The notes under the pieces: model-generated | Told to the model about the DNA's origin: nothing | The model's database searches: none | Seen by the model: the letters and a program-made list of their open reading frames with translations, nothing else | Source: Stutzerimonas sp. S1 | GTDB taxonomy: Bacteria; Pseudomonadota; Gammaproteobacteria; Pseudomonadales; Pseudomonadaceae | DNA length: 64,000 bases | NCBI RefSeq assembly: GCF_025966695.1 | Contig: NZ_JAOEIY010000004.1 | Location: 62,001 to 126,000, forward strand | Direction of reading: 5' to 3' | Part shown: positions 4,729 to 47,758 of the stretch, piece after piece | How the letters are laid out: each line of letters begins with the position of its first letter | Position numbering within the stretch: position 1 is the stretch's first letter | Made by a program: the position numbers and the translations under genes

Positions 4729-7458
4729 ATGGCCACGATCCACGTAGACGGCAAAGCCTTCGATGTCGACGGAGCGGACAACCTGTTGCAGGCCTGTCTG
4801 TCCCTCGGCCTCGATATTCCCTACTTCTGCTGGCACCCGGCGCTGGGCAGCGTCGGTGCCTGCCGCCAGTGCGCGGTCAAGCAGTACCAGGACGAGAACG
4901 ACACCCGCGGTCGCCTGGTCATGTCCTGCATGACGCCGGCGACCGACAAGACCTGGATCTCCATCGACGACGAGGAGGCCAAGGCCTTCCGCGCCAGCGT
5001 GGTCGAGTGGCTGATGATCAACCACCCGCACGACTGTCCGGTGTGCGAGGAAGGCGGTCACTGCCATCTGCAGGACATGACGGTGATGACCGGCCATAAC
5101 AAGCGCCGCTATCGCTTCACCAAGCGTACCCACCAGAACCAGGAACTCGGCCCGTTCATCGCCCACGAGATGAACCGCTGCATCGCCTGCTACCGCTGCG
5201 TGCGCTACTACAAGGATTATGCCGGCGGCGAAGACCTCGGCGTGTTCGGCGCGCATGACAACGTCTACTTCGGCCGCGTCGAGGACGGCGTGCTGGAAAG
5301 CGAGTTCTCCGGCAACCTGGTCGAGGTCTGCCCGACCGGCGTGTTCACCGACAAGACGCACTCCGAGCGCTACAACCGCAAGTGGGACATGCAGTTCGCG
5401 CCGAGCATCTGCCAGCAGTGCTCGGCCGGCTGCAACATCAGCCCTGGCGAGCGCTATGGCGAGATCCGCCGCATCGAGAACCGCTTCAACGGTGCGGTGA
5501 ACCACTATTTCCTTTGCGATCGGGGCCGTTTCGGTTACGGCTACGTGAACCGCAAGGATCGTCCGCGCCAGCCGCTGCTGCAGACGGAACAGACCACCCT
5601 GGGCGTGGATGCCGCGCTGGACCAGGCTGCCGCCCTGCTCGCTGGCCGGCGGCTGATCGGCATCGGTTCGCCGCGCGCCAGCCTGGAAAGCAACCACGCG
5701 TTGCGCGAACTGGTCGGCGCGGACAACTTCTATTCCGGCATCGCCGCCCAGGAACTGCAGAATCTGCAACTGATCCGCGAGCTGTTGCAGAACGGTCCGC
5801 TGCCGACGCCGTCGATGCGCGAGATCGAAGAACACGACGCGATCTTCGTGCTCGGCGAGGACCTGACCCAGACCGCGCCGCGCATCGCGCTGTCGCTGCG
5901 CCAGGCAGTCAAGGGCAAGGCCACCGAGATCGCCGCGGCGTCGAAGATTCCCGAATGGCACCAGGCCGCCGTGCAGAACGTCGCTCAGCACGCGCGGAGT
6001 CCGCTGTTCATCGCCTGCGTCAGCGAAACCCGCCTGGACGACGTGGCGACCGAAAGCGTGCAGGCCGCACCGGATGATCTGGCCCGCCTGGGTTTCGCCG
6101 TCGCGCATGCCATCGACCCCAGCGCACCGGCGGTTACCGGACTGGAAACCGATGCCGTACAGCTGGCGCAGCGCATCGCCAATGCCCTGCTGGCCGGCAA
6201 GCGTCCGCTGATCGTCTGCGGTGCCTCGCTCGGTTCGAAAACCGTGCTCGAGGCCGCCGCAAACATCGCCCAGGCGCTGCACAACCGCGAGAAGAATGCC
6301 TCGATCAGTCTGGTGGCCGCCGAAGCCAACAGCCTGGGCATGGCTCTGCTGCTGGCCGACGAGCGCGCCGACAAATCGGTGGACGCCGCGCTACGCGCGC
6401 TGACCAGCGGCGAGGCCGACGCCGTGCTGGTGTTGGAGAACGACCTCTATCGCCGCGCAGCCCAGGCCGACGTCGACGCTGCGCTGGATGCGGCAAAGGT
6501 GCGGATCGTCGCCGATCATCAGCACACCGCAACGGCCGCGCGTGCCGACCTGCTGCTGCCGGTGGCCAGTTTCGCCGAGGGCGACGGTACCCTGGTCAGC
6601 CAGGAGGGCCGCGCGCAGCGCTTCTTCCAGGTATTCGAACCCAGCTACTACGACAGCAGCATCCTGATTCGTGAGGGCTGGCGCTGGCTGCACGCGCTGC
6701 AATCGACCCGTGAGCACCGCCCGGTGGAATGGACGCAGCTCGACCAGGCCACCGAAGCGTGCGCCGCCAGCCAGCCGTTGCTGGACGGTATCCGCGACGC
6801 GGCGCCGAAGGCCGGTTTCCGCATCAAGGGCCTGAAGCTGGCCCGCGAACCACTGCGCTACAGCGGCCGCACCGCCATGCGCGCCAATATCAGCGTGCAC
6901 GAGCCGCGTCAGCCGCAGGACCCGGATTCGGCGTTCGCCTTCTCCATGGAAGGCTATTCCGGCTCGGCCGAGGCCCGCCAACAGATCCCCTTCGCCTGGT
7001 CGCCCGGCTGGAACTCGCCGCAAGCGTGGAACAAGTTCCAGGACGAGGTCGGCGGGCATCTGCGCGCCGGCGATCCAGGCGTGCGCCTGCTCGAATCCCG
7101 CGGTGCCGCGCTGCCCTGGTTCGTCCCGAACGCCGCCTTTGCCCCGCAGCCCGGGCATTGGCAGGCCGTGCCGCTGTATCACCTGTTCGGCAGCGACGAG
7201 ACCTCGGCACTGGCCGCACCGATCCAGGAACGCATCCCGCAGGCCTATGTGGCGCTGAACGCGGCCGAAGCCGCGCGCCTGGCCGTCAACGAAGGCGCCA
7301 TGCTGACCCTGCGCGTGAACGGGCAACCGCTGCGGCTGCCGCTGCGCATTCTTGATGATCTCGCCGTGGGAGTGGTGGGACTGCCGGTTGGCCTCACCGG
7401 CGTGCCTGCCGTCTTCGCCGGCGCGACCGTGAGTAACCTGCAGGAGGCCGCGCAATGA
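4729..7458 (+). CDS. nuoG: NADH-quinone oxidoreductase subunit G
   Basis: Largest peripheral-arm subunit of complex I, 909 residues. The N-terminal ferredoxin domain binds N1b through C34, C45, C48 and C67. It is followed by the His-Cys3 motif [12 protein letters not shown] and the [17 protein letters not shown] and CPTGVFTDK motifs for further [4Fe-4S] clusters. The extra N7 cluster motif CQQCSAGC with its distant fourth Cys ([10 protein letters not shown]) is present, as in the E. coli type. The rest is molybdopterin-oxidoreductase-like and non-catalytic in this family. The stop overlaps the nuoH start (ATGA). Confidence 0.96.
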
Positions 7459-8447
7459 GCTGGCTGACCCCCGAAATCATCGACGTGATCATCCAGGTGC
7501 TCAAGGCCATCGTCATCCTGCTGGTGGTGGTGGTCGCAGGCGCGCTGCTGAGCTTCGTCGAGCGGCGCCTTCTCGGACTCTGGCAGGATCGCTACGGCCC
7601 CAACCGCGTCGGGCCGTTCGGTCTGTTCCAGCTTGCCGCCGACATGCTGAAGATGTTCTTCAAGGAAGACTGGACACCGCCCTTCGTCGACAAACCGATC
7701 TTCACCCTGGCACCGGTGGTGGCGATGAGTTCGCTGCTGATCGCCTTTGCCGTGGTGCCGGTGACGCCGACCTGGGGCGTGGCGGATCTGAACATCGGCC
7801 TGCTGTTCTTCTTCGCGATGGCGGGCCTCACCGTCTATGCGGTGCTGTTCGCCGGCTGGTCGAGCAACAACAAGTTCGCCCTGCTCGGCAGCCTGCGGGC
7901 CTCGGCGCAGACGGTGTCCTATGAGGTGTTCCTCGGCCTGTCGCTGATGGGCATCGTGGCGCAGGTCGGCTCGTTCAACATGCGCGACATCGTCGAGTAT
8001 CAACAGCAGCACCTGTGGTTCATCATCCCGCAGTTCCTCGGTTTCGCGACCTTCTTCATCGCCGGCGTTGCCGTCACCCACCGTCATCCGTTCGACCAGC
8101 CAGAAGCCGAGCAGGAGCTCGCTGACGGCTATCACATCGAATACGCGGGCATGAAGTGGGGCATGTTCTTCGTCGGCGAGTACATCGGCATCGTGCTGAT
8201 CTCCGCACTGCTGACCACGCTGTTCTTCGGCGGCTGGCACGGGCCCTTCCTCGAGACGCTGCCGTGGCTGTCGTTCTTCTGGTTCGCGCTCAAGACCGGC
8301 TTCTTCATCATGCTGTTCATCCTGCTGCGCGCTTCGATTCCGCGGCCGCGCTACGACCAGGTGATGGCCTTCAGCTGGAAGTTCTGCCTGCCGCTGACCC
8401 TGATCAACCTGCTGGTGACCGGCGCGCTCGTGCTTGCCGCGCAGTAA
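7455..8447 (+). CDS. nuoH: NADH-quinone oxidoreductase subunit H
   Basis: Integral membrane subunit that closes the quinone chamber and links the peripheral and membrane arms. It has 330 residues with about eight hydrophobic helices. The family segments [28 protein letters not shown] and [22 protein letters not shown] are present; the latter is the conserved acidic loop between helices 5 and 6. It overlaps nuoG by 4 nt and is 12 nt from nuoI. Confidence 0.96.
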
Positions 8448-8459
8448 GGAGAAAGACCC

Positions 8460-9008
8460 ATGTTCAAATACCTAGGCGAGGTGCTGCACGGCACCTACAC
8501 CCAGTTGCGCAGCCTGGTGATGGTGTTCAGCCATGCCTTCCGCAAGCGCGACACCCTGCAATACCCGGAAGAGGCCGTGTACCTGCCACCGCGCTACCGC
8601 GGTCGCATCGTGCTGACTCGCGACCCCGACGGCGAAGAACGCTGCGTGGCTTGCAACCTCTGCGCGGTGGCCTGCCCGGTGGGCTGCATCTCGCTGCAGA
8701 AGGCCGAGACCGAGGATGGCCGCTGGTATCCGGAATTCTTCCGCATCAACTTCTCGCGCTGCATTTTTTGCGGCCTGTGCGAGGAGGCCTGCCCGACCAC
8801 CGCAATCCAGCTGACCCCGGATTTCGAGATGGGCGAGTACAAGCGCCAGGATCTGGTGTACGAGAAGGAAGACCTGCTGATCGCCGGTCCGGGCAAGAAC
8901 CCGGACTACAACTTCTACCGCGTTTCCGGCCTGGCCATCGCCGGCAAGCCGAAGGGCGCCGCGCAGTGCGAAGCCGAGCCAATCAACGTCAAGGGGTTGC
9001 TGCCGTGA
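8460..9008 (+). CDS. nuoI: NADH-quinone oxidoreductase subunit I
   Basis: TYKY-type ferredoxin subunit carrying clusters N6a and N6b, which pass electrons to N2 on NuoB. Two CxxCxxCxxxC motifs are visible: C62, C65, C68, C72 and C101, C104, C107, C111. The protein has 182 residues, within the family range. A good Shine-Dalgarno (aaggagaaag) precedes the ATG. A 78-nt non-coding gap separates it from nuoJ. Confidence 0.96.
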
Positions 9009-9086
9009 CCGTATCGCCGCGCCCCCGCTCCTTCCGCCCGCTCGCCTTATGGGCAAGCGACGCCACAGTTTCGAGGACCTGACGTC

Positions 9087-9587
9087 ATGGAATTCGCCTT
9101 CTATTTCTCCGCCGGTGTCGCGGTGGTTTCCACCCTGCGGGTGATCACCGGCAGCAACCCGGTGCACGCCCTGCTCTATCTGGTCATCTCGCTGCTGGCG
9201 GTAGCCATGTGCTTCTTCAGCCTCGGCGCGCCGTTTGCCGGAGCGCTGGAGATCATCGTCTATGCCGGCGCCATCATGGTGCTGTTCGTCTTCGTGGTGA
9301 TGATGCTCAACCTCGGCCCGGCGATCGCTCAACAGGAACGCGCCTGGCTGACACCGAAAATCTGGATCGGCCCGTCGCTGCTCGCTGCCCTGCTGCTCGC
9401 ACAGCTGCTCTGGGCGCTGTTCGCCGCGCCAAGCAACGCCCCGCTGGCACAGACCAGCGTCGGTCCGAAGGAGGTTGGCGTGGCGCTATTCGGCCCCTAT
9501 CTGCTGGCCGTCGAGTTGGCGTCGCTGCTGCTGCTCGCCGCGCTGATCGCCGCCTACCACCTGGGCCGTCACGAGGCGAAGGAGTAA
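9087..9587 (+). CDS. nuoJ: NADH-quinone oxidoreductase subunit J
   Basis: Membrane-arm subunit of 166 residues with five predicted hydrophobic helices. It contains the conserved segment GALEIIVYAGAIMVLFVFVVMML, the helix-3 region that carries the pi-bulge in structures of complex I. nuoK follows after 3 nt. Confidence 0.95.
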   Translation: MEFAFYFSAGVAVVSTLRVITGSNPVHALLYLVISLLAVAMCFFSLGAPFAGALEIIVYAGAIMVLFVFVVMMLNLGPAIAQQERAWLTPKIWIGPSLLAALLLAQLLWALFAAPSNAPLAQTSVGPKEVGVALFGPYLLAVELASLLLLAALIAAYHLGRHEAKE

Positions 9588-9590
9588 ACC

Positions 9591-9899
9591 ATGCAAGCCA
9601 TTCCTCTCGAACACGGCCTGGCCGTCGCCGCGATCCTCTTCTGCCTCGGGCTGGTCGGTCTGATGGTGCGGCGCAACATCCTGTTCATGCTGATGAGTCT
9701 GGAAATCATGATGAACGCCGCCGGTCTGGCCTTCATCGTCGCCGGTAGCCGCTGGGCACAGGCGGACGGGCAGATCATGTTCATCCTGGTGATCACCCTA
9801 GCGGCAGCCGAAGCCGCCATCGGCCTGGCGATCCTGCTGCAGCTGTACCGCCGCTTCAATACCCTCGACGTCGATGCCGCAAGCGAGATGCACGGATGA
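9591..9899 (+). CDS. nuoK: NADH-quinone oxidoreductase subunit K
   Basis: Small membrane-arm subunit, 102 residues with three helices. The conserved buried glutamates are present in [13 protein letters not shown] and in the [10 protein letters not shown] segment. The stop overlaps the nuoL start (ATGA). Confidence 0.96.
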
Positions 9900-11740
9900 A
9901 TCTTCTATTCCTGACCTTCGTTTTTCCGCTGCTCGGCTACTTCCTGCTCGCCTTTTCCCGCGGGCGGATTTCCGAGAATCTGGCTGCGACCATCGGCGTC
10001 GGCTCGGTGGGCCTCAGCGCCCTGACCAGCGCCTGGGTCATCTGGCAATTCAACACCACGCCGCCGGCCGAAGGGGTCTACATCCTGCAGCTGTGGCAGT
10101 GGCTGGACGTCGCCGGTCTGCAGGCGTCCTTCGGTCTGCATCTGGACGGCCTGTCGCTGACCATGCTCGGCGTGGTTACCGGCGTGGGCTTCCTGATCCA
10201 CCTGTTCGCCAGCTGGTACATGCGCGGCGAGGAGGGCTATTCGCGCTTCTTCGCCTATACCAACCTGTTCATCTTCAGCATGTTGCTGCTGGTGCTGGGC
10301 GACAACCTGCTGCTGCTGTACTTCGGCTGGGAAGGCGTCGGGCTCTGCTCCTACCTGCTGATCGGCTTCTATTTCAAGGAGCGCAAGAACGGCAACGCCG
10401 CGCTGAAGGCGTTCATCGTCACCCGCGTCGGCGACGTGTTCATGGCCTTCGGCCTGTTCATTCTGTTCGTCCAGCTCGGCACGCTGAACATCCAGGAGCT
10501 GCTGGCGCTGGCGCCGCAGAAGTTCGCCGAGGGCGATCTGTGGATCACCCTCGCAACCCTGGCGCTGCTCGGCGGCGCAGTCGGGAAATCGGCGCAATTG
10601 CCGCTGCAGACCTGGCTGGCCGACGCCATGGCTGGCCCGACTCCCGTCTCTGCGCTGATCCATGCGGCGACCATGGTTACCGCCGGTGTCTACCTGATTG
10701 CCCGCACCCACGGGCTGTTCCTGCTGGCGCCAGACGTGCACGAACTGGTTGGCGTCGTCGGCGGCGTGACGCTGGTGCTGGCCGGCTTTGCCGCGCTGGT
10801 GCAGACCGACATCAAGCGCATCCTCGCCTACTCGACCATGAGCCAGATCGGCTACATGTTCCTCGCCCTCGGCGTCGGCGCCTGGGACGCGGCGATCTTC
10901 CACCTGATGACCCATGCCTTCTTCAAGGCCCTGCTGTTCCTCGCCTCCGGCGCGGTGATTCACGCCTGCCACCACGAGCAGAACATCTTCAGGATGGGCG
11001 GTCTGTGGAGGAAGCTGCCGCTGGCCTACGCCAGCTTCATCGTCGGCGGCGCCGCACTGGCCGCCCTGCCGCTGGTCACGGCCGGTTTCTATTCCAAGGA
11101 CGAGATCCTCTGGGAAGCCTTCGCCAGCGGACATAGCGGGCTGCTTTATGCGGGGCTCGCAGGCGCCTTCCTCACCTCGCTGTACACCTTCCGGCTGATC
11201 TTCATCGCCTTCCACGGCAAGCCGCAGACCGAAGCGCATGCCGGCCACGGTATCGCCCACAACCTGCCGTTGATGGTGTTGATCGTGCTGTCGACCGTGG
11301 TCGGCGCGCTGATCACTCCGCCACTGGCTGGCGTGCTGCCTGAAAGCGTCGGCCATGCTGGCGGCGAGGCCAAGCACAGCCTGGAGCTGGTGTCCGGCGC
11401 CATTGCAATCGCCGGCATTCTGCTGGCCGCGGCACTGTTCCTCGGCAAGCGCGGGCTGGTCACGTCCATCGCCCAGAGCGCGCCCGGACGCCTGCTGAGC
11501 GCCTGGTGGTTCGCCGCCTGGGGCTTCGACTGGCTCTACGACAAGCTCTTCGTGCAGCCCTACCTGTGGCTCTGCCGCCTGCTCGCCCGTGACCCCTTCG
11601 ACGCCACCATCGGCCTGGTGCCACGCACCGCGCGCGGCAGTCACCTCGTGCTGAGCCGCAGCGAAACCGGCCAGTTGCGCTGGTATGCGCTGTCCATCGT
11701 CGGCGGAGCCGTGCTGTTGCTCGGCATCATCCTGCTCTGA
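9896..11740 (+). CDS. nuoL: NADH-quinone oxidoreductase subunit L
   Basis: Distal antiporter-like proton-pumping subunit with the long lateral helix at the C terminus, 614 residues. Family signatures are [20 protein letters not shown] and [38 protein letters not shown], which hold the conserved Glu and Lys of the proton path. Hydrophobic throughout, of normal length, and translationally coupled to nuoK. Confidence 0.97.
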
Positions 11741-11761
11741 ATTGCCCAAGGACTCGAAACC

Positions 11762-13291
11762 GTGATTCTGCCCTGGCTAATCCTGATTCCCTTCATCGGC
11801 GGCTTGCTCTGCTGGGTGGTCGAGCATTTCGACCAGACCCTGCCGCGCTGGATCGCGCTGTTCACCATGGCGCTGTTGTTCGGCCTGGGCCTCTGGCTCT
11901 GGGGCCACGGCGACTACAGCCTGGCGCCCGCGCCTGAGTCGGGCTCGACCTGGGCGCTGGAGTTCAAACACGTCTGGATCGAGCGCTTCGGCATCAATCT
12001 GCACCTGGCGCTCGACGGCTTGTCGCTGCTGATGATCTTGCTTACCGGCCTGCTCGGTGTGCTGTCGGTGCTCTGCTCGTGGAAAGAGATCCAGCGCCAT
12101 GTCGGCTTCTTCCACCTCAATCTGATGTGGATTCTCGGCGGCGTGGTCGGTGTGTTCCTCGCCCTCGACCTGTTCCTGTTCTTCTTCTTCTGGGAAATGA
12201 TGCTGGTGCCGATGTACTTCCTTATCGCGCTCTGGGGCCACAGCTCGGAAGGCAAGCGTTCGCGGATCAACGCGGCGACCAAGTTCTTCATCTACACCCA
12301 GGCCAGCGGCCTGATCATGCTGGTGGCGATCCTCGGCCTGGTGCTGGTGAACTACCACAACACCGGCGTGCTCACCTTCGACTACGCCCTGCTGCTCGAT
12401 GCCGATCTCGATCCCAAGATCGAGTTTCTGCTGATGCTCGGCTTCTTCATCGCCTTTGCAGTGAAATTTCCGATCGTACCGCTGCACGCCTGGCTACCGG
12501 ATGCCCACGCCCAGGCACCGACCGCAGGCTCGGTCGATCTCGCCGGCATCCTGCTGAAGACCGCCGCCTACGGCATGATCCGCTTCGCCTTGCCGCTGTT
12601 TCCAGATGCCTCGGCGGACTTCGCGCCGATCGCGATGGCGCTCGGCCTCATCGGTATCTTCTACGGCGCGCTGCTGTCGTTCGGTCAGACCGACATCAAG
12701 CGTCTGGTCGCCTATTCCAGCATCTCCCACATGGGTTTCGTGCTGATCGGCATTTACTCCGGCAGCGAACTGGCACTGCAAGGTGCGGTGGTGCTGATGA
12801 TCGCCCACGGTCTCTCGGCGGCAGCGCTGTTCATCCTCTGTGGCCAGCTCTACGAGCGCCTGCACACCCGCGACATGCGCGAGATGGGCGGTCTGTGGTC
12901 GCGCCTGCCTTGGCTGCCGGCGCTGAGCCTGTTCTTCGCCGCCGCCTCGCTGGGCCTGCCCGGTACCGGCAACTTCGTCGGCGAGTTCGTGGTGCTGTTC
13001 GGTGCTTTCGGCCAGTGGCCGTGGATCGTGGTGATCGCCACCTTCGGTCTGGTGCTCTCCTCGGTGTATTCGCTGGCGATGATCCATCGCGCGCATTTCG
13101 GTCCGGTCAAGGCGGAGGGCAGCCTGCCGAGTCTGGATGTCCGCGAGGTCGGCATGATCCTTTCGCTTGCCGCGTTGCTGGTGCTGCTCGGAATCTATCC
13201 GCAGCCGGTATTCGATACCTCGCTGGCCACCATGAGCGGCGTGCAGCAATGGTTCAGTACCGCTTTCTCCCAACTCGCTTCGGTCCGGTAG
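11762..13291 (+). CDS. nuoM: NADH-quinone oxidoreductase subunit M
   Basis: Second antiporter-like proton-pumping subunit, 509 residues. It shows [19 protein letters not shown] and [37 protein letters not shown], the conserved charged residues of the family. Initiation is at a GTG codon ([11 protein letters not shown]), preceded by aaggactcgaaacc. It lies 21 nt after nuoL and 7 nt before nuoN. Confidence 0.96.
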
Positions 13292-13298
13292 TCGCGCA

Positions 13299-14768
13299 AT
13301 GGAACTCACTCAACAACACTTCATCGCCCTGCTGCCGCTGCTCGTCGTCAGTGCCACCGTCGTGGTGGTGATGCTGGCAATCGCCTGGCGGCGCAACCAC
13401 GGCCTGAGCTACACACTGAGCACCGGCGGCCTGGTGCTCGCCCTGTTTTCGATCGTTCCGGCGATGCAAGCCGATGTGCAGCAGGTCACGATGCTGCTGC
13501 GCACCGACGGCTTCGCCTACTTCTACATGACACTGATGCTGCTCGCGACGCTGGTTTGCGTCACGCTGGCACATGCCTATCTGGGCGAGAGGCCTGGCGG
13601 CAGCGGCTTTCCCGGCAATCGGGAAGAGCTTTACCTGCTGATGTTGCTGTCCGCAGCAGGCGGCATGGTGCTGGTCAGCGCACAGCACCTGGCGAGCCTG
13701 TTCATTGGTCTGGAGTTGCTTTCCGTACCGGTCTACGGGCTGGTTGCGTATGCCTTTTTCAACAGGCGTTCGCTCGAAGCCGGCATCAAGTACATGGTGC
13801 TCTCTGCCGCCGGCAGCGCGTTTCTGTTGTTCGGCATGGCGCTGCTGTACGCCGAGTCCGGCAGCCTGGCCTTCACCGAGATTGGCAGCAGTCTTGCCGC
13901 ACAGGGCTCGTCGATACTGGTGCAAACCGGCATCGGCATGATGCTGATCGGCCTTGGCTTCAAGCTCTCGCTGGTCCCCTTCCACCTGTGGACCCCAGAT
14001 GTCTACGAGGGCGCCCCGGCACCGGTCTCGGCGTTTCTCGCCACTGCCAGCAAGGTTGCCGTATTCGCGGTGCTGCTGCGGCTGTATCAGCTGTCGCCAG
14101 CTACCAGCGGCGGCTGGCTGAACGACGCGCTGAGCCTGATCGCCATCGCCTCGATTCTCGCCGGCAACCTGCTGGCGTTGAACCAGAGCAACTTGAAGCG
14201 CCTGCTCGGCTACTCGTCGATCGCCCATTTCGGCTATCTTTTGGTGGCGCTGATCGCCAGCAACGGCCTGGCGGTGGAAGCAGTCGGCGTATATCTGGTG
14301 ACTTACGTGCTGACCAGCCTCGGCGCGTTCGGCGTGATCACTCTGATGTCCAGCCCGTTCCAGGGCCGTGACGCGGACGCGCTGTACCAGTACCGCGGTC
14401 TGTTCTGGCGGCGTCCGTACCTGACTGCCGTGCTTACCCTGATGATGCTCTCGCTGGCCGGTATTCCGCTGACCGCGGGCTTCATCGGCAAGTTCTACGT
14501 GGTCGCCAGCGGGGTCGAGTCGCAGCTGTGGTGGCTGCTCGGTACGCTGATCGCCGGTAGCGCCATCGGCCTGTATTACTACCTGCGAGTCATGGTGACG
14601 CTGTTTCTCGTCGAGCCGGGCATTCGCCGCCACGATGCACCGTTCGACTGGGGCCAGCGCGCCGGTGGCATCATGCTGGTGGCTGTCGCCGCACTTACCC
14701 TGCTGCTTGGCATCTACCCACAGCCGCTGCTGGAGCTGGTCCAACAGGTAGGCCTGGCCGCACTCTGA
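13299..14768 (+). CDS. nuoN: NADH-quinone oxidoreductase subunit N
   Basis: Third antiporter-like subunit, next to NuoK in the membrane arm, 489 residues. It contains [17 protein letters not shown] and [36 protein letters not shown]. Last gene of the nuo operon. A strong intrinsic terminator begins 38 nt after the stop. Confidence 0.96.
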
Positions 14769-38177: not shown

Positions 38178-38368
38178 GAAACTGATCCTCGTGTACTGCC
38201 CGCTGGCCACTCGGTTATGACGGCCCAGCTCAAGTGACAGCAGAACCCCGCGAGGGTGCGCCACGACCTTCCGAGCGGTTCACGCAGCGCGGGAACACCA
38301 GCGCTCGGCTTCGTTCAGATGAATATCCGCCGCCATCAGAATGCGCAGTACATCAAGGAGCACCCGCG

Positions 38369-39409
38369 ATGCTGGCTCACAGCACCTTCATGCCACCCTA
38401 CCTGCTTGATCGCATCGTCAAGCACGGCTCGCAACAGCAGCGCCGCTGCGCGCGTGGCACGCTCGAACACGTCCGCAGCCTGCGCGCCAACCCTGGTCCA
38501 CCGCACCTGCAACACATCCCGGCCATTGCGGCGCTGCGCACGCCTGGGCGCCCACAGCGACGCATCCACGATGCCCAGCAGCAGATGCAGCTGCCCGGCA
38601 TGCTGCGACGTAGCGAAGGCGAGCCGAACAGCGGCGATGCCGCGGTGGACGAAGCCTACGCCGCGCTCGGTGCCACCTACGCGCTGTTCTGGCAGGTCTA
38701 CCAGCGCGACTCGATGGACGACCAGGGGATGCCACTGATCGGCACCGTGCACTACGGACAGGGTTACGAAAACGCCTTCTGGAACGGCGAGCAGATGGTA
38801 TTCGGCGATGGTGACGGCGAGCTGTTCCATCGGTTCACCCGCTCGTTGGACGTGGTCGCTCATGAGCTGACCCACGGCCTGATCGAGAGTGAGGCCGCGC
38901 TGGTATATGCCAATCAGTCCGGCGCGCTCAACGAATCGATATCCGACGTGTTCGGCGTACTCAGCAAGCAGCATGTCCTGGGCCAGACCGCCGGCGAAGC
39001 GGACTGGCTGATCGGTGCCGAGTTGCTCACCGACAACGTCCAGGGCCGAGCCCTACGCTCGATGGCCGAACCTGGCAGTGCCTATGACGATCCCGTGCTG
39101 GGCAAAGACCCGCAACCGGCACATATGCGTGACTTCATCGTCACCCGTGACGACAACGGCGGCGTCCACCTGAACTCCGGCATTCCCAATCGCGCCTTTT
39201 ACCTTGTCGCCAGCGCATTGGGCGGCTATGCCTGGGAACACGCCGGGCAGATCTGGTATGACACGCTGTGTGATCGTCGACTGGCCAACGACGCACAGTT
39301 CGCTGATTTCGCCCGACTCACCATTGCGCATGGCGCGCGCCTGTTCGGCGCAGACACCGCGCGCATGGTGGAGCAGGCCTGGCACGATGTCGGCGTACCG
39401 GTCGCATAG
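38369..39409 (+). CDS. protealysin-like M4 metallopeptidase
   Basis: Thermolysin-family protease of 346 residues from ATG 38369, which has aaggag eight bases upstream. There is no signal peptide. Instead there is a short propeptide with the protealysin motif (MPPYLLDRIVKHG, residues 8-20) and no FTP domain. Zinc-site HELTH is at residues 165-169, with E189 in GALNES as the third ligand; the catalytic His is in NGGVHLNSG. In Serratia, protealysin is made without a classical secretion signal and is co-encoded with an emfourin inhibitor, the arrangement seen here. No cysteine switch or secretion-system gene is adjacent. Confidence 0.9.
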   Translation: MLAHSTFMPPYLLDRIVKHGSQQQRRCARGTLEHVRSLRANPGPPHLQHIPAIAALRTPGRPQRRIHDAQQQMQLPGMLRRSEGEPNSGDAAVDEAYAALGATYALFWQVYQRDSMDDQGMPLIGTVHYGQGYENAFWNGEQMVFGDGDGELFHRFTRSLDVVAHELTHGLIESEAALVYANQSGALNESISDVFGVLSKQHVLGQTAGEADWLIGAELLTDNVQGRALRSMAEPGSAYDDPVLGKDPQPAHMRDFIVTRDDNGGVHLNSGIPNRAFYLVASALGGYAWEHAGQIWYDTLCDRRLANDAQFADFARLTIAHGARLFGADTARMVEQAWHDVGVPVA

Positions 39410-39420
39410 GAAATGAAACG

Positions 39421-39750
39421 ATGGAAAAACTGCCGGCGCTAGGCCACGACGCCTGGCTACGCCTCTCGCGTCAAGGCGGTGTAGCCGTCTTCCCCGCCCG
39501 CGCTCGCCCACGGGAAATCGACCTCGCCCAGTACGACAGCCACCAGCGCGGACGCCTCTGCTCGGTGCTGGAGCGCTGCCTGCCGCTGACCAGCTCCACC
39601 GCCGGCGCCGGTGACCAGCGCTTCTACCGCATCGAACTGCATTTTCATCGCGACCAGATCAATAACGAATTGGTTTTGCAGGTACCCGAAGAACGCGCGC
39701 CGGCGGAGCTGGTGACGCTGTGGCAGAACGGCTCACTGGACGGCGACTGA
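39421..39750 (+). CDS. emfourin-like M4 protease inhibitor
   Basis: 109-residue protein starting 11 nt after the protease stop, so the two are almost surely one operon. The size, the RLSRQGGVAVFPA opening and the later YRIELHF...ELVLQVPEERAP beta-rich segment match the emfourin family, which in Serratia tightly inhibits protealysin. It has no signal peptide, so it would act on the cytoplasmic enzyme. Identification rests on context plus size and pattern; a profile search would settle it. Confidence 0.78.
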   Translation: MEKLPALGHDAWLRLSRQGGVAVFPARARPREIDLAQYDSHQRGRLCSVLERCLPLTSSTAGAGDQRFYRIELHFHRDQINNELVLQVPEERAPAELVTLWQNGSLDGD

Positions 39751-40697: not shown

Positions 40698-41342
40698 ATG
40701 CGGCATGGAGTATCTCGCTTGTCTTTGCCAGGAACCCTGCGGAATTACCGGCAACATACCCCCGTGGCCCTAAGTGCCCTGCTGCTCTGCCTCTTCGGCA
40801 TCTACCTGGCCGGGCAAATCAGCGCCTGGCTGCAACTCAGCCGCACGCCGATCGCGCCTGCCGCCAACGACAGTCGCATCAACCCCGCGAGCCAGTCTGA
40901 TCCGCAGCGCCTGGAATTCCTCTTCGGAGCCCTGCCGGCCGCCCAGAGCACAACGACAGCCAACACCGCCGGCCTGACCCTGCACGGCAGCTTCGTGCAT
41001 GCCGATCCCGACCGCTCCAGTGCAATCATCCAGTTTGACGGCCAGCCGCCTCAGCTGGTCTGGCAGGGTCAAGAAGTGCAAAGCGGCATAAGCCTGCACA
41101 GCGTTCATCCGGACCACGTCGAAATAATGCGCGACGGCCGCCGGGAAATTCTGAACTTCCCGGCCGTCCGGTCCCCCGTCTTCATCCCCGAAGAGTCTTC
41201 GCAACAGCCCTACGAGACCATGGATGGCGTTGGTACCGAACAGATGCAACAACAGATGGAAGCGCTGCGCCAGCAGTTGGAGAACGCTGTGAACCAGCCA
41301 GCCACTGAACCCTCAAACGAACCGCCCATGGAAGATGACTGA
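40698..41342 (+). CDS. gspC: type II secretion system protein GspC (XcpP-like)
   Basis: Inner-membrane linker of the type II secretion system, 214 residues. One transmembrane helix at about 24-44 (VALSALLLCLFGIYLAGQISAW) is followed by the periplasmic homology region (about 70-150, LTLHGSFVHADPDRSSAIIQF...LVWQGQEV). It then has a Gln-rich coiled-coil-like segment (MQQQMEALRQQLENAVN) instead of a PDZ domain, as in XcpP of P. aeruginosa. gspD follows after 3 nt. In P. aeruginosa xcpP-xcpQ sit in the same place relative to metZ, but there the xcpR-Z operon lies divergently beside them; here tRNA genes are found instead. Confidence 0.85.
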   Translation: MRHGVSRLSLPGTLRNYRQHTPVALSALLLCLFGIYLAGQISAWLQLSRTPIAPAANDSRINPASQSDPQRLEFLFGALPAAQSTTTANTAGLTLHGSFVHADPDRSSAIIQFDGQPPQLVWQGQEVQSGISLHSVHPDHVEIMRDGRREILNFPAVRSPVFIPEESSQQPYETMDGVGTEQMQQQMEALRQQLENAVNQPATEPSNEPPMEDD

Positions 41343-41345
41343 ACG

Positions 41346-43601
41346 ATGCCGCCGTTTTTCACTCGCCCGCTGCTTGCTGTGATCGTCACCTCTGCCCTGA
41401 TCGCTCCGCTGTCCTCGCTGGCAGCCGGAGACGCAGGGATCGAGCCGAGCTCATCTCAAGAGGACGGCTGGACCATCAACCTGAAGGATGCCGATATCCG
41501 GGCGTTCATCGATCAGATCAGTCAGCTCAGCGGCCAGACCTTCATCGTCGATCCCCGCGTGAAGGGCCAGGTCAGTGTGGTATCCAACGCCACACTGACG
41601 ATGAGCGAGGTCTATCAGCTGTTCCTCTCGGTAATGGCCACCCACGGTTTCAGCGTGCTGACTCAAGGCGATGTCGCGCGCATCGTCCCGAACGCCGAGG
41701 CAAAGGCCGAAGCCGGCGGTGGTCCGTCAGGAGGCGATCAGCTTGAAACGCGGGTCATCCAGGTGCAGCACACCGCGGCAACCGAACTGATTCCACTGAT
41801 CCGGCCACTGGTGCCGCAGTACGGCCATCTTGCTGCCGTAACATCGGCCAATGCCCTGATCATCAGCGATCGCAGTGCCAATATCGCTCGCATCGAGGAT
41901 TTGGTACGCCAGCTCGACCGCACGGAGACCGACGACTACAGTGTGCTCAACCTGCGCCACGGCTGGGCGACGGACATTGCCGAGGTGCTACGCAACTCGC
42001 TGATTCGCGGCGAAGCGAAAAGCACCGCCGGGATGCAAATCATTGCCGACTCACGGACCAACCAGCTGATCTTCATCGGCCCGGCCCAGGCGCGCAGCAA
42101 GCTCGTTAGCCTGGCGCAAACTCTGGACACTCCCACCACCCGCTCGGCCAACACACGGGTGATACGCCTGCGACATAACGATGCCAAGGCGTTGGCCGAA
42201 ACCCTCGGCGACATTTCCGAAGGGCTAAAGGAAACTGGCGAAAGCGAAACCACCACCAGTCGCCCGCAGAATATTCTGATCCGCGCCGACGAGAGTCTGA
42301 ACGCCCTGGTGCTGCTGGCGGAGCCGGAGCTGGTCGGCACGCTGGAAAGCATTGTTCGCCAACTGGACGTTCCCCGCGCGCAGGTCATGGTGGAAGCAGC
42401 GATCGTCGAGGTTTCCGGCGACATCTCCGATGCCTTGGGCGTGCAATGGGCAGTGGATGCGCGCGGCGGTACCGGCGGGGTCGGCGGGGTCAACTTCGGC
42501 AATACCGGACTGTCGATTGGCAGCGTATTGAACGCTATTAACGAGGACGAAATACCGAGCAACCTGCCCGATGGCGCGATCATCGGCATCGGAACGCGCA
42601 GCTTCGGTGCCCTGGTCACCGCGCTGTCGTCCAACAGCAAGAGCAACCTGCTTTCGACGCCGAGCCTGCTCACGCTAGATAACCAGGAGGCGGAAATTCT
42701 CGTCGGGCAGAACGTGCCGTTCCAGACCGGCGCCTATACCACCGATGCCTCCGGAGCAAACAACCCTTTCACCACCATCGAGCGGCAGGATATCGGTGTC
42801 ACCCTGAAGGTGACCCCCCATATCAACGAAGGCGCAACGCTGCGTCTGGAGATCGAACAGGAGATTTCCTCCATCGCGCCGAGCGCCAGCCTGACGGCCC
42901 AGGCAGTCGATCTAGTTACCAACAAACGCTCGATCAAAAGCACCATCCTTGCCGAGGACGGCCAGGTGATCGTGCTCGGCGGACTCATTCAGGATGATGT
43001 GACCCGCACTGACTCCAAGGTCCCGCTTCTAGGTGACATCCCGCTACTCGGCGCGCTCTTCCGCTCCACGCAGGAGAGCCACGTCAAACGCAATCTGATG
43101 GTGTTCCTGCGCCCAACGGTGGTGCGCGACCGCGCTGGCCTTGCCGCGCTGTCTGGGAAGAAATACAGCGATATCCGCGTAATCGAGACCGGCTCTGCCA
43201 GTCCTGCCATCCTGCCAGCTAATCCCGAACGTTTGTTCGATGGCCAAGGCGAACCGGCACCGGCCATCGACCTGCGTGCCAACGAGCCGATCCAAGGCTC
43301 GTTGGCACCGGTTCCATCGCGTAGTTCCAGCTCAATCCAAACCACATCGCAACCCCGGCCATCAGCGGCGGGTTGGTCAGTCCAACTGGCGAGTCTGAGC
43401 AATCCAGCCAGTGCCAAAGCTTTGCAGGAGCGCCTGGCCGGGCTAGGTTACGCCGCCTATATCCGCCCGGGAAACGGCACCACCCGCGTCTACGTCGGCC
43501 CTTTCGCTGACCGCGCCGAAGCCATTCGCCTGCGCGAACGGCTCTCGCAGGAACAACGTCTGGACGGAATAGTGCTACGGGTGGGGCCAGCAGCTGAGTG
43601 A
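41346..43601 (+). CDS. gspD: type II secretion secretin GspD with C-terminal SPOR domain
   Basis: Outer-membrane secretin of 751 residues, longer than P. aeruginosa XcpQ (about 658). A signal sequence (1-24) precedes N0 (about 38-115, GWTINLKDADIRAFIDQISQ), then N1-N3 (about 130-390). The secretin core (about 395-610) carries NLLSTPSLLTLDNQEAEILVGQNVPF and KVPLLGDIPLLGALFR. After the core, where the pilotin-binding S domain is normally found, there is a linker and then a SPOR domain at residues 677-751 (WSVQLASLSNPASAKALQER...). SPOR domains bind denuded septal peptidoglycan. The domain is very like the SPOR domain of the DedD-like protein at 47162. Its ending converges on metZ. Confidence 0.92.
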   Translation: MPPFFTRPLLAVIVTSALIAPLSSLAAGDAGIEPSSSQEDGWTINLKDADIRAFIDQISQLSGQTFIVDPRVKGQVSVVSNATLTMSEVYQLFLSVMATHGFSVLTQGDVARIVPNAEAKAEAGGGPSGGDQLETRVIQVQHTAATELIPLIRPLVPQYGHLAAVTSANALIISDRSANIARIEDLVRQLDRTETDDYSVLNLRHGWATDIAEVLRNSLIRGEAKSTAGMQIIADSRTNQLIFIGPAQARSKLVSLAQTLDTPTTRSANTRVIRLRHNDAKALAETLGDISEGLKETGESETTTSRPQNILIRADESLNALVLLAEPELVGTLESIVRQLDVPRAQVMVEAAIVEVSGDISDALGVQWAVDARGGTGGVGGVNFGNTGLSIGSVLNAINEDEIPSNLPDGAIIGIGTRSFGALVTALSSNSKSNLLSTPSLLTLDNQEAEILVGQNVPFQTGAYTTDASGANNPFTTIERQDIGVTLKVTPHINEGATLRLEIEQEISSIAPSASLTAQAVDLVTNKRSIKSTILAEDGQVIVLGGLIQDDVTRTDSKVPLLGDIPLLGALFRSTQESHVKRNLMVFLRPTVVRDRAGLAALSGKKYSDIRVIETGSASPAILPANPERLFDGQGEPAPAIDLRANEPIQGSLAPVPSRSSSSIQTTSQPRPSAAGWSVQLASLSNPASAKALQERLAGLGYAAYIRPGNGTTRVYVGPFADRAEAIRLRERLSQEQRLDGIVLRVGPAAE

Positions 43602-47161: not shown

Positions 47162-47758
47162 TCAGAGGGCTTCCGGCTTGAAGCGAACCACGAACCCGTT
47201 CAGCTTCTGTTGCCGCTGCAGCTGATCACGCAATCGATTGGCTTCATCGCGTTCGATCAGCGGCCCGACGAAGACCCGATTCATTCCGTCCGCAACACGA
47301 ATATATGCATTGTAGCCCTGCGAACGCAGCGTTTTCTGTAAGGTTTCGGCACTCGCCCGATTGGACAAACTGGCCAGCTGGATCGACCAGCTCACCGGCA
47401 GTTTGTTGGCATCCAGCCGTGCTTGTTCCTGCGGGGCCGATTGGACCGCGTCCGACTGAGTGGCGACCGTCGGCCTCTCTTCTGGGGTTGCCTGAGGCGT
47501 CGGGGCGGCAGATGCCTCGTCCACCGTCTCTTCGGCGATTTCCAAACCCTCGGGAATCGACGCTGGCTCGGGCACCGCAATCGGCTCCATCTCAACTTTC
47601 GAGATCGAGGGTGTGGCAGGCATTGCAGGGGCGTCAACACTCACGTGACGCAGATCATTCTGACGGGTGAACAGCATGGGTACGAAGATTACCGCTAGAG
47701 CGATCAGTACCAACGCCCCGACCATGCGTTGCTTCAATCCCTTATCCAGCAGTGCCAT
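47162..47758 (-). CDS. dedD: DedD-like SPOR-domain protein
   Basis: Inner-membrane cell-division-associated protein of 198 residues. One transmembrane helix at about 12-30 (GALVLIALAVIFVPMLF), a Pro/Glu-rich periplasmic linker, and a SPOR domain at residues 124-198 (WSIQLASLSNRASAETLQKT...). E. coli DedD binds septal peptidoglycan and helps FtsN-type septation. Same gene order as E. coli (folC-dedD-cvpA-purF). Its start overlaps the folC 3' end by 17 nt. The SPOR domain matches the GspD tail at about 41 of 75 positions by eye. Confidence 0.92.
   Translation of the reverse strand: MALLDKGLKQRMVGALVLIALAVIFVPMLFTRQNDLRHVSVDAPAMPATPSISKVEMEPIAVPEPASIPEGLEIAEETVDEASAAPTPQATPEERPTVATQSDAVQSAPQEQARLDANKLPVSWSIQLASLSNRASAETLQKTLRSQGYNAYIRVADGMNRVFVGPLIERDEANRLRDQLQRQQKLNGFVVRFKPEAL

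Follow-up and report, generated by a model that had tools for sequence, protein, structure and literature searches.

The gene gspD (xcpQ), located at positions 41346..43601 on the forward strand of a stretch of 64,000 nucleotides from Stutzerimonas sp. S1 (contig NZ_JAOEIY010000004.1, positions 62,001 to 126,000; the whole stretch is called the window below), encodes the secretin of a type II secretion system (T2SS), a protein of 751 amino acids that carries a SPOR domain at its C-terminal end. This SPOR tail is real and is conserved enough to matter. Judged by analogy with other peptidoglycan-binding secretins, it probably tethers the secretin subunits, or the finished pore, to the denuded glycan of the division site and of the poles that result from it.

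The protein is named GspD by the NCBIfam profile TIGR02517 (533.4 bits, cut-off 351.35), and Pfam places N0 at residues 44-113, Secretin_N in three stretches and the beta-barrel domain Secretin at residues 426-594 (PF00263, E 5.2e-52; 42621..43127, forward strand). The sole SPOR match (PF05036) lies at residues 674-744 (43365..43577, forward strand; E 3.8e-19, 69.2 bits, cut-off 21), with none before N0, and the isolated tail of 76 residues scored 73.1 bits. A previous examination of the letters and open reading frames (the sequence-only reading) had placed a SPOR domain at positions 43374-43601, which correspond to residues 677-751 plus the stop codon; the Pfam search bears this out, with a match that begins nine bases sooner, at 43365. 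A profile built from GspD tails and DedD proteins (A3) also matched the solved SPOR domains of FtsN (1uta, E 6.6e-10), a Bacillus subtilis amidase (1x60, E 2.9e-07), DedD (6ztg, E 5.4e-4) and RlpA (6i0a, E 0.0092). The core of the protein, residues 27-635, was matched to the structure 5wln (E 9.9e-282), which we take to be XcpQ of Pseudomonas aeruginosa. Regarding RlpA, the structure of the SPOR domain in complex with glycan is known (PMC6895207; here and below, papers are cited by their PMC numbers for those portions that were available).

The SPOR domain is an addition to the tail of the secretin and not an exchange, because the SPOR-bearing GspDs keep the conserved end of their relatives and then continue via a linker. 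The 65 SPOR-less named loci read by script (out of the set described below) end 53-70 residues past the start of the last barrel motif, usually with LFD...PAIDLR and a few residues more, and the SPOR-bearing proteins retain this LFD...PAIDLR end, which is followed by a Pro/Ser-rich linker and then by SPOR. In the GspD of the window, comparison across the named loci and the genus set assigns residues 595-644 (43128..43277, forward strand) to the conserved C-terminal end of the XcpQ core, at the position of the S-domain; it closes with PAPAIDLR, and SPOR-less relatives stop at or near there. Comparison of 31 genomes assigns residues 645-673 (43278..43364, forward strand) to the variable linker. 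The distance from DLR to the tryptophan of SPOR is 29-63 residues in these genomes and 32 in the window, where the whole stretch between Secretin (to 594) and the SPOR match (from 674) amounts to 79 residues. A low-complexity linker of 50-60 residues had been described earlier; a variable linker does exist, but residues 595-644 belong to the conserved end and the linker proper has about 30 residues (645 to 673-676). The statement that SPOR stands in place of the usual pilotin-binding tail does not hold, as the C-terminal region is complete and conserved with SPOR added behind it, and replacement of the secretin tail by SPOR was rejected on the grounds that this tail is intact in the SPOR-bearing genes. 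The 22 short genes of the genus end with IDLRQ in 19 cases and with DVRQ (G007), DLRR (G006) and DLRQQP (G154) in the others, and their matches to the profile of SPOR-bearing GspD ends (A1, see below) stop at positions 88-123, before the SPOR tryptophan at column 125. For 14 of these 22 genes, three-frame translations of the 330 bases that follow the gene were inspected by eye, and no SPOR remnant was seen past the stop codon.

A further suggestion had been that SPOR might replace a pilotin, i.e., that by attaching to peptidoglycan it positions secretin monomers close to the outer membrane, where otherwise a lipoprotein would do so. AspS-type pilotins (PF16549) were found in none of the 56 Stutzerimonas genomes, with or without SPOR, in a search that detected the Escherichia coli positive control and that extended neither to the PulS type, nor to the PA3611 type, another type of pilotin, nor to Pseudomonas. 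This result and the localisation role suggested for the SPOR domain of Legionella LspD (PMC6617341) are what substitution has in its favour. However, the 22 SPOR-less congeners share the same C-terminal end and are equally without a PF16549 match, and the region bound by pilotins in other secretins is kept, not replaced. Given the shared end of the tail-less congeners and the lack of PF16549 throughout the 56 genomes, pilotin substitution is unlikely, to a degree that leaves it little credence. Pilotin-dependent secretins are marked by an Ala-Phe motif in the C-terminal helix alpha-12 (PMC6532946). Residues 596-645 of the GspD of the window contain no Ala-Phe; they contain a Leu-Phe in ERLFDG, although the position of helix alpha-12 was not placed within them.

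For the distribution of the tail, 398 genomes of the family, 56 of which belong to Stutzerimonas, were searched with a profile (A1) made from the last 200 columns of 17 SPOR-bearing GspDs. Within the genus, 30 genomes matched both halves of the profile in one frame, 22 matched the first half and then reached a stop codon, and four gave no match (G004, G008, G009 and G637; completeness of G004 71%, of G637 73%). G008 and G009 are near-complete genomes without a match to this GspD end, and the Xcp-type secretin seems to be missing there. A frameshift or misassembly, named beforehand as grounds for rejecting the domain, is ruled out by the recurrence of the same in-frame fusion in 30 of the 56 genomes. 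None of the matches listed for the other 342 genomes of the family spanned both halves, although the tail of G094, from the neighbouring genus g32, was itself unspanned there; a profile search of its own found the GspD SPOR tail of G094, and Pfam confirms it (E 1.8e-11). The GspD of G067, a congener of G094, ends without SPOR. These two loci (L100 and L099, respectively) thus differ in the tail within one genus, and the tail of G094 stands out by its long branch in the SPOR tree and by a linker of 63 residues, the longest seen.

Among 80 named loci, 14 have the SPOR tail, 13 of them labelled Stutzerimonas and one Pseudomonas sp. Q2-TVG4-2; 13 were recognized by script, and L114, in which the script missed the motif, was confirmed by Pfam. 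The nearest named relative is S. stutzeri TS44 (90%). Another 14 named loci of the same clade (L120-L133) are without the tail, including L131, which the script did not read and which was taken as G006:C2, where gspD has no SPOR at its end. The 52 more distant loci (L136-L187), all labelled Pseudomonas except for two unclassified Gammaproteobacteria, lack linker and SPOR without exception. (Note that the named loci come partly from the same assemblies as the 398 genomes, so that the counts of 30 out of 56 and 14 out of 80 are not independent.) The survey of GspD tails that had been proposed earlier accordingly finds SPOR in 30 of 56 Stutzerimonas genomes and in 0 of 52 Pseudomonas-type loci, and the reported absence of SPOR from Pseudomonas XcpQ stands. 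Outside the genus, no match to both halves was found among the best candidates scored (at most eight per genome) in four overlapping sets: 398 family genomes (E up to 1e-33), 390 from the order (1e-18), 369 from the class (1e-15) and 398 from the phylum (1e-13). Weak or divergent cases may escape such a search. Extension of GspD beyond the C-terminal region is not rare: long Pro-rich or charged tails without SPOR are frequent in the GspDs of other groups (L200, L266-L268, L274 and most of L295-L310). In 25 loci with long secretin frames, chosen for their length, 18 secretin tails were readable, none of which has SPOR, and six were not judged; L293, one of the 25, has SPOR without a secretin motif.

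The tail is a DedD-type SPOR domain, and profile scores place it closer to DedD than to any other SPOR protein encoded in the genome. A profile of GspD tails, with that of the window included, was compared with the five SPOR proteins of the genome and yielded 119.8 bits for the tail itself, 111.6 for DedD, 22.8 for a lipoprotein labelled as of the RlpA type and 8.5 for a SPOR protein of 222 residues; a SPOR protein of 520 residues gave no match at 0.1. The gene dedD lies on the reverse strand of the window (47162..47758), 3.56 kb from gspD, and encodes 198 amino acids with SPOR at residues 123-192 (47183-47392; PF05036, E 3.4e-18), a domain 55% identical to the tail of GspD. A dedD-like gene is therefore the likely kind of source. 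In an ancestor of Stutzerimonas and of one neighbouring genus, the secretin would have been extended beyond its former end by a flexible linker and a SPOR domain of the DedD type, the latter probably copied from the dedD a few kb downstream. There was no clear sign that gene conversion has captured the tail from the local dedD recently or repeatedly. Across 31 genomes, the DedD of the same genome is beaten in nearness to the tail by an average of 33% of the 31 DedDs when DNA is compared and of 38% when protein is compared; because these values are below one half, the own DedD is somewhat nearer than average, with kinship and base composition uncontrolled.

A SPOR tree was computed from 81 domains and 76 columns with 200 bootstrap trees (bootstrap not settled) and L191 as lone outgroup. 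In 98% of the bootstrap trees a single branch separates the 55 DedD rows from all others, and a single clade of GspD tails is not rejected by the approximately unbiased test (p 0.41 with 24 rows without G094, 0.33 with G094). The tail changes state at least four times on a tree of the GspD core (71 rows, 31 of them with SPOR) and four times on a metZ plus purF tree rooted with Pseudomonas (67 rows, i.e., the 67 of the 71 loci in which both genes were found). In the latter, the earliest branches within a starred clade of 54 rows, which comprises the genus and g32, are G188 and G626, two genomes that have the tail. The clade of the window adjoins the SPOR-less clade of S. chloritidismutans/kunmingensis. 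The shortest reading that fits would be one gain followed by three losses, in G067, in G154 with G605 and in a clade of 20, as compared with five events if all were gains. Two results speak against so simple a history: the GspD tails form one side of a branch in 0 of the 200 bootstrap trees, the outgroup row with its very long branch attaching among them, and the SPOR-less genes stop nearly exactly at the ancestral end, which plain loss explains poorly. Since the short genes end so close to that point, recombinational replacement of the gene end, or a larger number of gains, are possible alternatives.

The tail of GspD is under purifying selection, with ratios of nonsynonymous to synonymous substitution (dN/dS) of 0.22-0.29. 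The median dN/dS over the usable pairs (dS up to 1.5, partly saturated) was 0.29 for the SPOR domain of the tail (166 pairs), 0.24 for the stretch before it (193 pairs), 0.071 for the GspD core (405 pairs) and 0.063 for the SPOR domain of DedD (183 pairs); in 13 close pairs, the ratios of means were 0.225 for the tail SPOR, 0.345 for the linker, 0.058 for the core and 0.048 for the DedD SPOR. The differences between these close pairs fall at third codon positions in 194 of 321 cases in the tail SPOR and in 216 of 268 cases in that of DedD, i.e., the excess is weaker in the tail. Regarding single residues, all 31 tails have W677, Q680, G718 and P719, and 29 of the 31 have S683 and R714, whereas position 684 is occupied by Leu in 23, Phe in five and Val in three; DedD retains the equivalents of all these residues in 67 of 67 sequences. 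Q680 aligns with RlpA Q270, FtsN Q251 and DedD Q147, and R714 with FtsN R285. Q270 of RlpA contacts denuded glycan (PMC6895207), and Q147 is the matching glutamine of DedD (PMC7642682). Anchoring to peptidoglycan is the natural inference from a C-terminal SPOR domain with these glycan-contact residues.

Solved T2SS secretins form rings of 15 subunits that insert hardly more than their rim into the outer membrane, and their C-terminal region is periplasmic (PMC6532946). 5wln likewise has 15 chains, although the subunit number in the working machine is debated (PMC9239104). By analogy, the C-terminus of the GspD studied here would sit in the periplasm close beneath the outer membrane, and a ring of 15 subunits would bear the same number of SPOR domains on flexible tethers, which would bind glycan strands lacking stem peptides. 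Such a SPOR ring at the level of the C-terminus could bind the wall with high avidity. Subunits would then be retained at, and the pore tethered to, newly processed peptidoglycan where the cell divides and at the poles derived from that site, similar to the effect of the AMIN domains of PilQ, which bind peptidoglycan and are needed, before PilQ oligomerises, for the placing of PilO at septa and poles (PMC5285504). A bolder proposal, made tentatively and with somewhat more doubt than belief, is that a domain taken over from a neighbouring cell-division gene links secretion through the T2SS pore to the division cycle. New pores would be assembled mainly at septa and new poles, where the many-fold C-terminal tails bind denuded glycan, and the tail would have been dropped again in several lineages.

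Three observations count against a tethering role. The SPOR domain of the tail evolves about 4-5 times faster than that of DedD; in the tails of G026 (L061) and G030 (L064) the position of R714 is occupied by Leu or Gln and that of S683 by Arg, which suggests that SPOR may be decaying or altered there and that binding may have decayed; and 22 of the 56 Stutzerimonas genomes keep a GspD without SPOR, so that the tail is not needed for secretion. The same faster evolution, absence from 22 genomes and changed contact residues in two speak for a passive extension, in which a chance capture is tolerated although the domain has no real role. We regard this as quite improbable in view of dN/dS values well below 1, the share of third-position differences in the close pairs (194/321), the four invariant residues in 31 of 31 tails and the retention of the tail in 30 Stutzerimonas genomes, one per species. 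Another way to explain a DedD-like SPOR domain on a secretin is recruitment by protein contact, in which the domain does not itself bind glycan but brings in peptidoglycan synthases or hydrolases that clear a passage for the pore; in E. coli, PBP1A and PBP1B are interaction partners of DedD and DamX and are stimulated by them (PMC7642682), but the glutamine of the glycan contact is invariant in every one of the 31 tails, and we find the idea hard to credit.

Among known systems, Legionella LspD is likewise a T2SS secretin fused to SPOR, and the only one known with this domain according to a paper of 2022 (PMC9239104), which gives the position as N-terminal; its SPOR precedes N0, whereas that of Stutzerimonas comes after both the barrel and the C-terminal region, towards the outer membrane, and belongs to the DedD subtype of Pseudomonadaceae. 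DedD itself, with SPOR of the same subtype, is a short protein with a transmembrane segment and without a secretin domain (PMC7642682). PilQ resembles the GspD of the window as a secretin with a peptidoglycan-binding module of its own that is used for septal and polar placing (PMC5285504), but the module is AMIN instead of SPOR, is N-terminal and serves a pilus instead of a secretion system. XcpQ of Pseudomonas has a homologous core (5WLN is given as P. aeruginosa in PMC6532946), and the Pseudomonas-type loci have the same conserved C-terminal end, but linker and SPOR are missing in 52 of 52. GspA, which has a peptidoglycan-binding domain, and GspB/OutB connect T2SS secretins to peptidoglycan (PMC9239104) as separate proteins, GspB acting on the N0 end and OutB being covalently attached to the wall (PMC12274547). 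The existence of such anchors in other T2SS favours a more general function, in which the tail fixes the pore to suitable peptidoglycan anywhere in the cell for mechanical stability and has no part in septal or polar targeting; this is unlikely, though well within reach.

No C-terminal SPOR domain on a T2SS secretin was found in the available portions of the open-licence literature on SPOR and secretins (GspD, XcpQ, LspD, Stutzerimonas; including PMC9239104, PMC6617341, PMC5285504, PMC10797017, PMC12274547, PMC4827864 and PMC12918733), database annotation being left unchecked. As a SPOR-bearing T2SS secretin is already known in LspD, the protein described here is a new variant, in which the C-terminal position is the new part. 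How the wide T2SS pore is built through, and held in, the mesh of peptidoglycan is unsettled, and the known anchors (GspA, GspB, the AMIN domains of PilQ and the N-terminal SPOR of LspD) vary from one bacterium to another. Stutzerimonas is one genus that varies for a C-terminal anchor in the same gene at the same place, which makes its effect testable, including by comparison of sister species. If the bolder proposal is true, the tail losses in several lineages provide natural pairs with and without the anchor, and the C-terminal solution is a parallel to that of PilQ with AMIN. The protein is also a clear example of a cell-division module moved into a secretion machine.

The gene gspC (xcpP), the first of the gspCD pair, is located directly upstream at 40698..41342 on the forward strand (T2SSC, PF11356, E 1.5e-15). 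The genes gspE, F, G, H, I, J, K and L are found on another contig (C21) of the same genome, at 7427-14496 (L292, G000 contig 21), separate from gspCD of the window. The T2SS looks complete apart from the gene in the gspM position, because gspE to gspL each score above their NCBIfam cut-offs; the gene in the gspM position, next to gspL, gave no match to any NCBIfam family. On the 3' side of gspD, a convergent metZ follows after a short gap both in the window and in the short genes printed, and the gap is longer in some SPOR-bearing genomes (L050, L062, L070). In L085, L089 and L093, which are of the Pseudomonas type, the DNA directly after gspD is, by eye, unlike the end of metZ, so Stutzerimonas may have lost a gene that once lay between the two. 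Further upstream in the window, before the tRNA genes and gspCD, a protealysin-type M4 metalloprotease is encoded at 38234-39409 on the forward strand (Peptidase_M4, M4_C and PLN_propep), followed on the same strand by an Emfourin protein at 39421-39750, which is presumably an inhibitor that pairs with the M4 protease.
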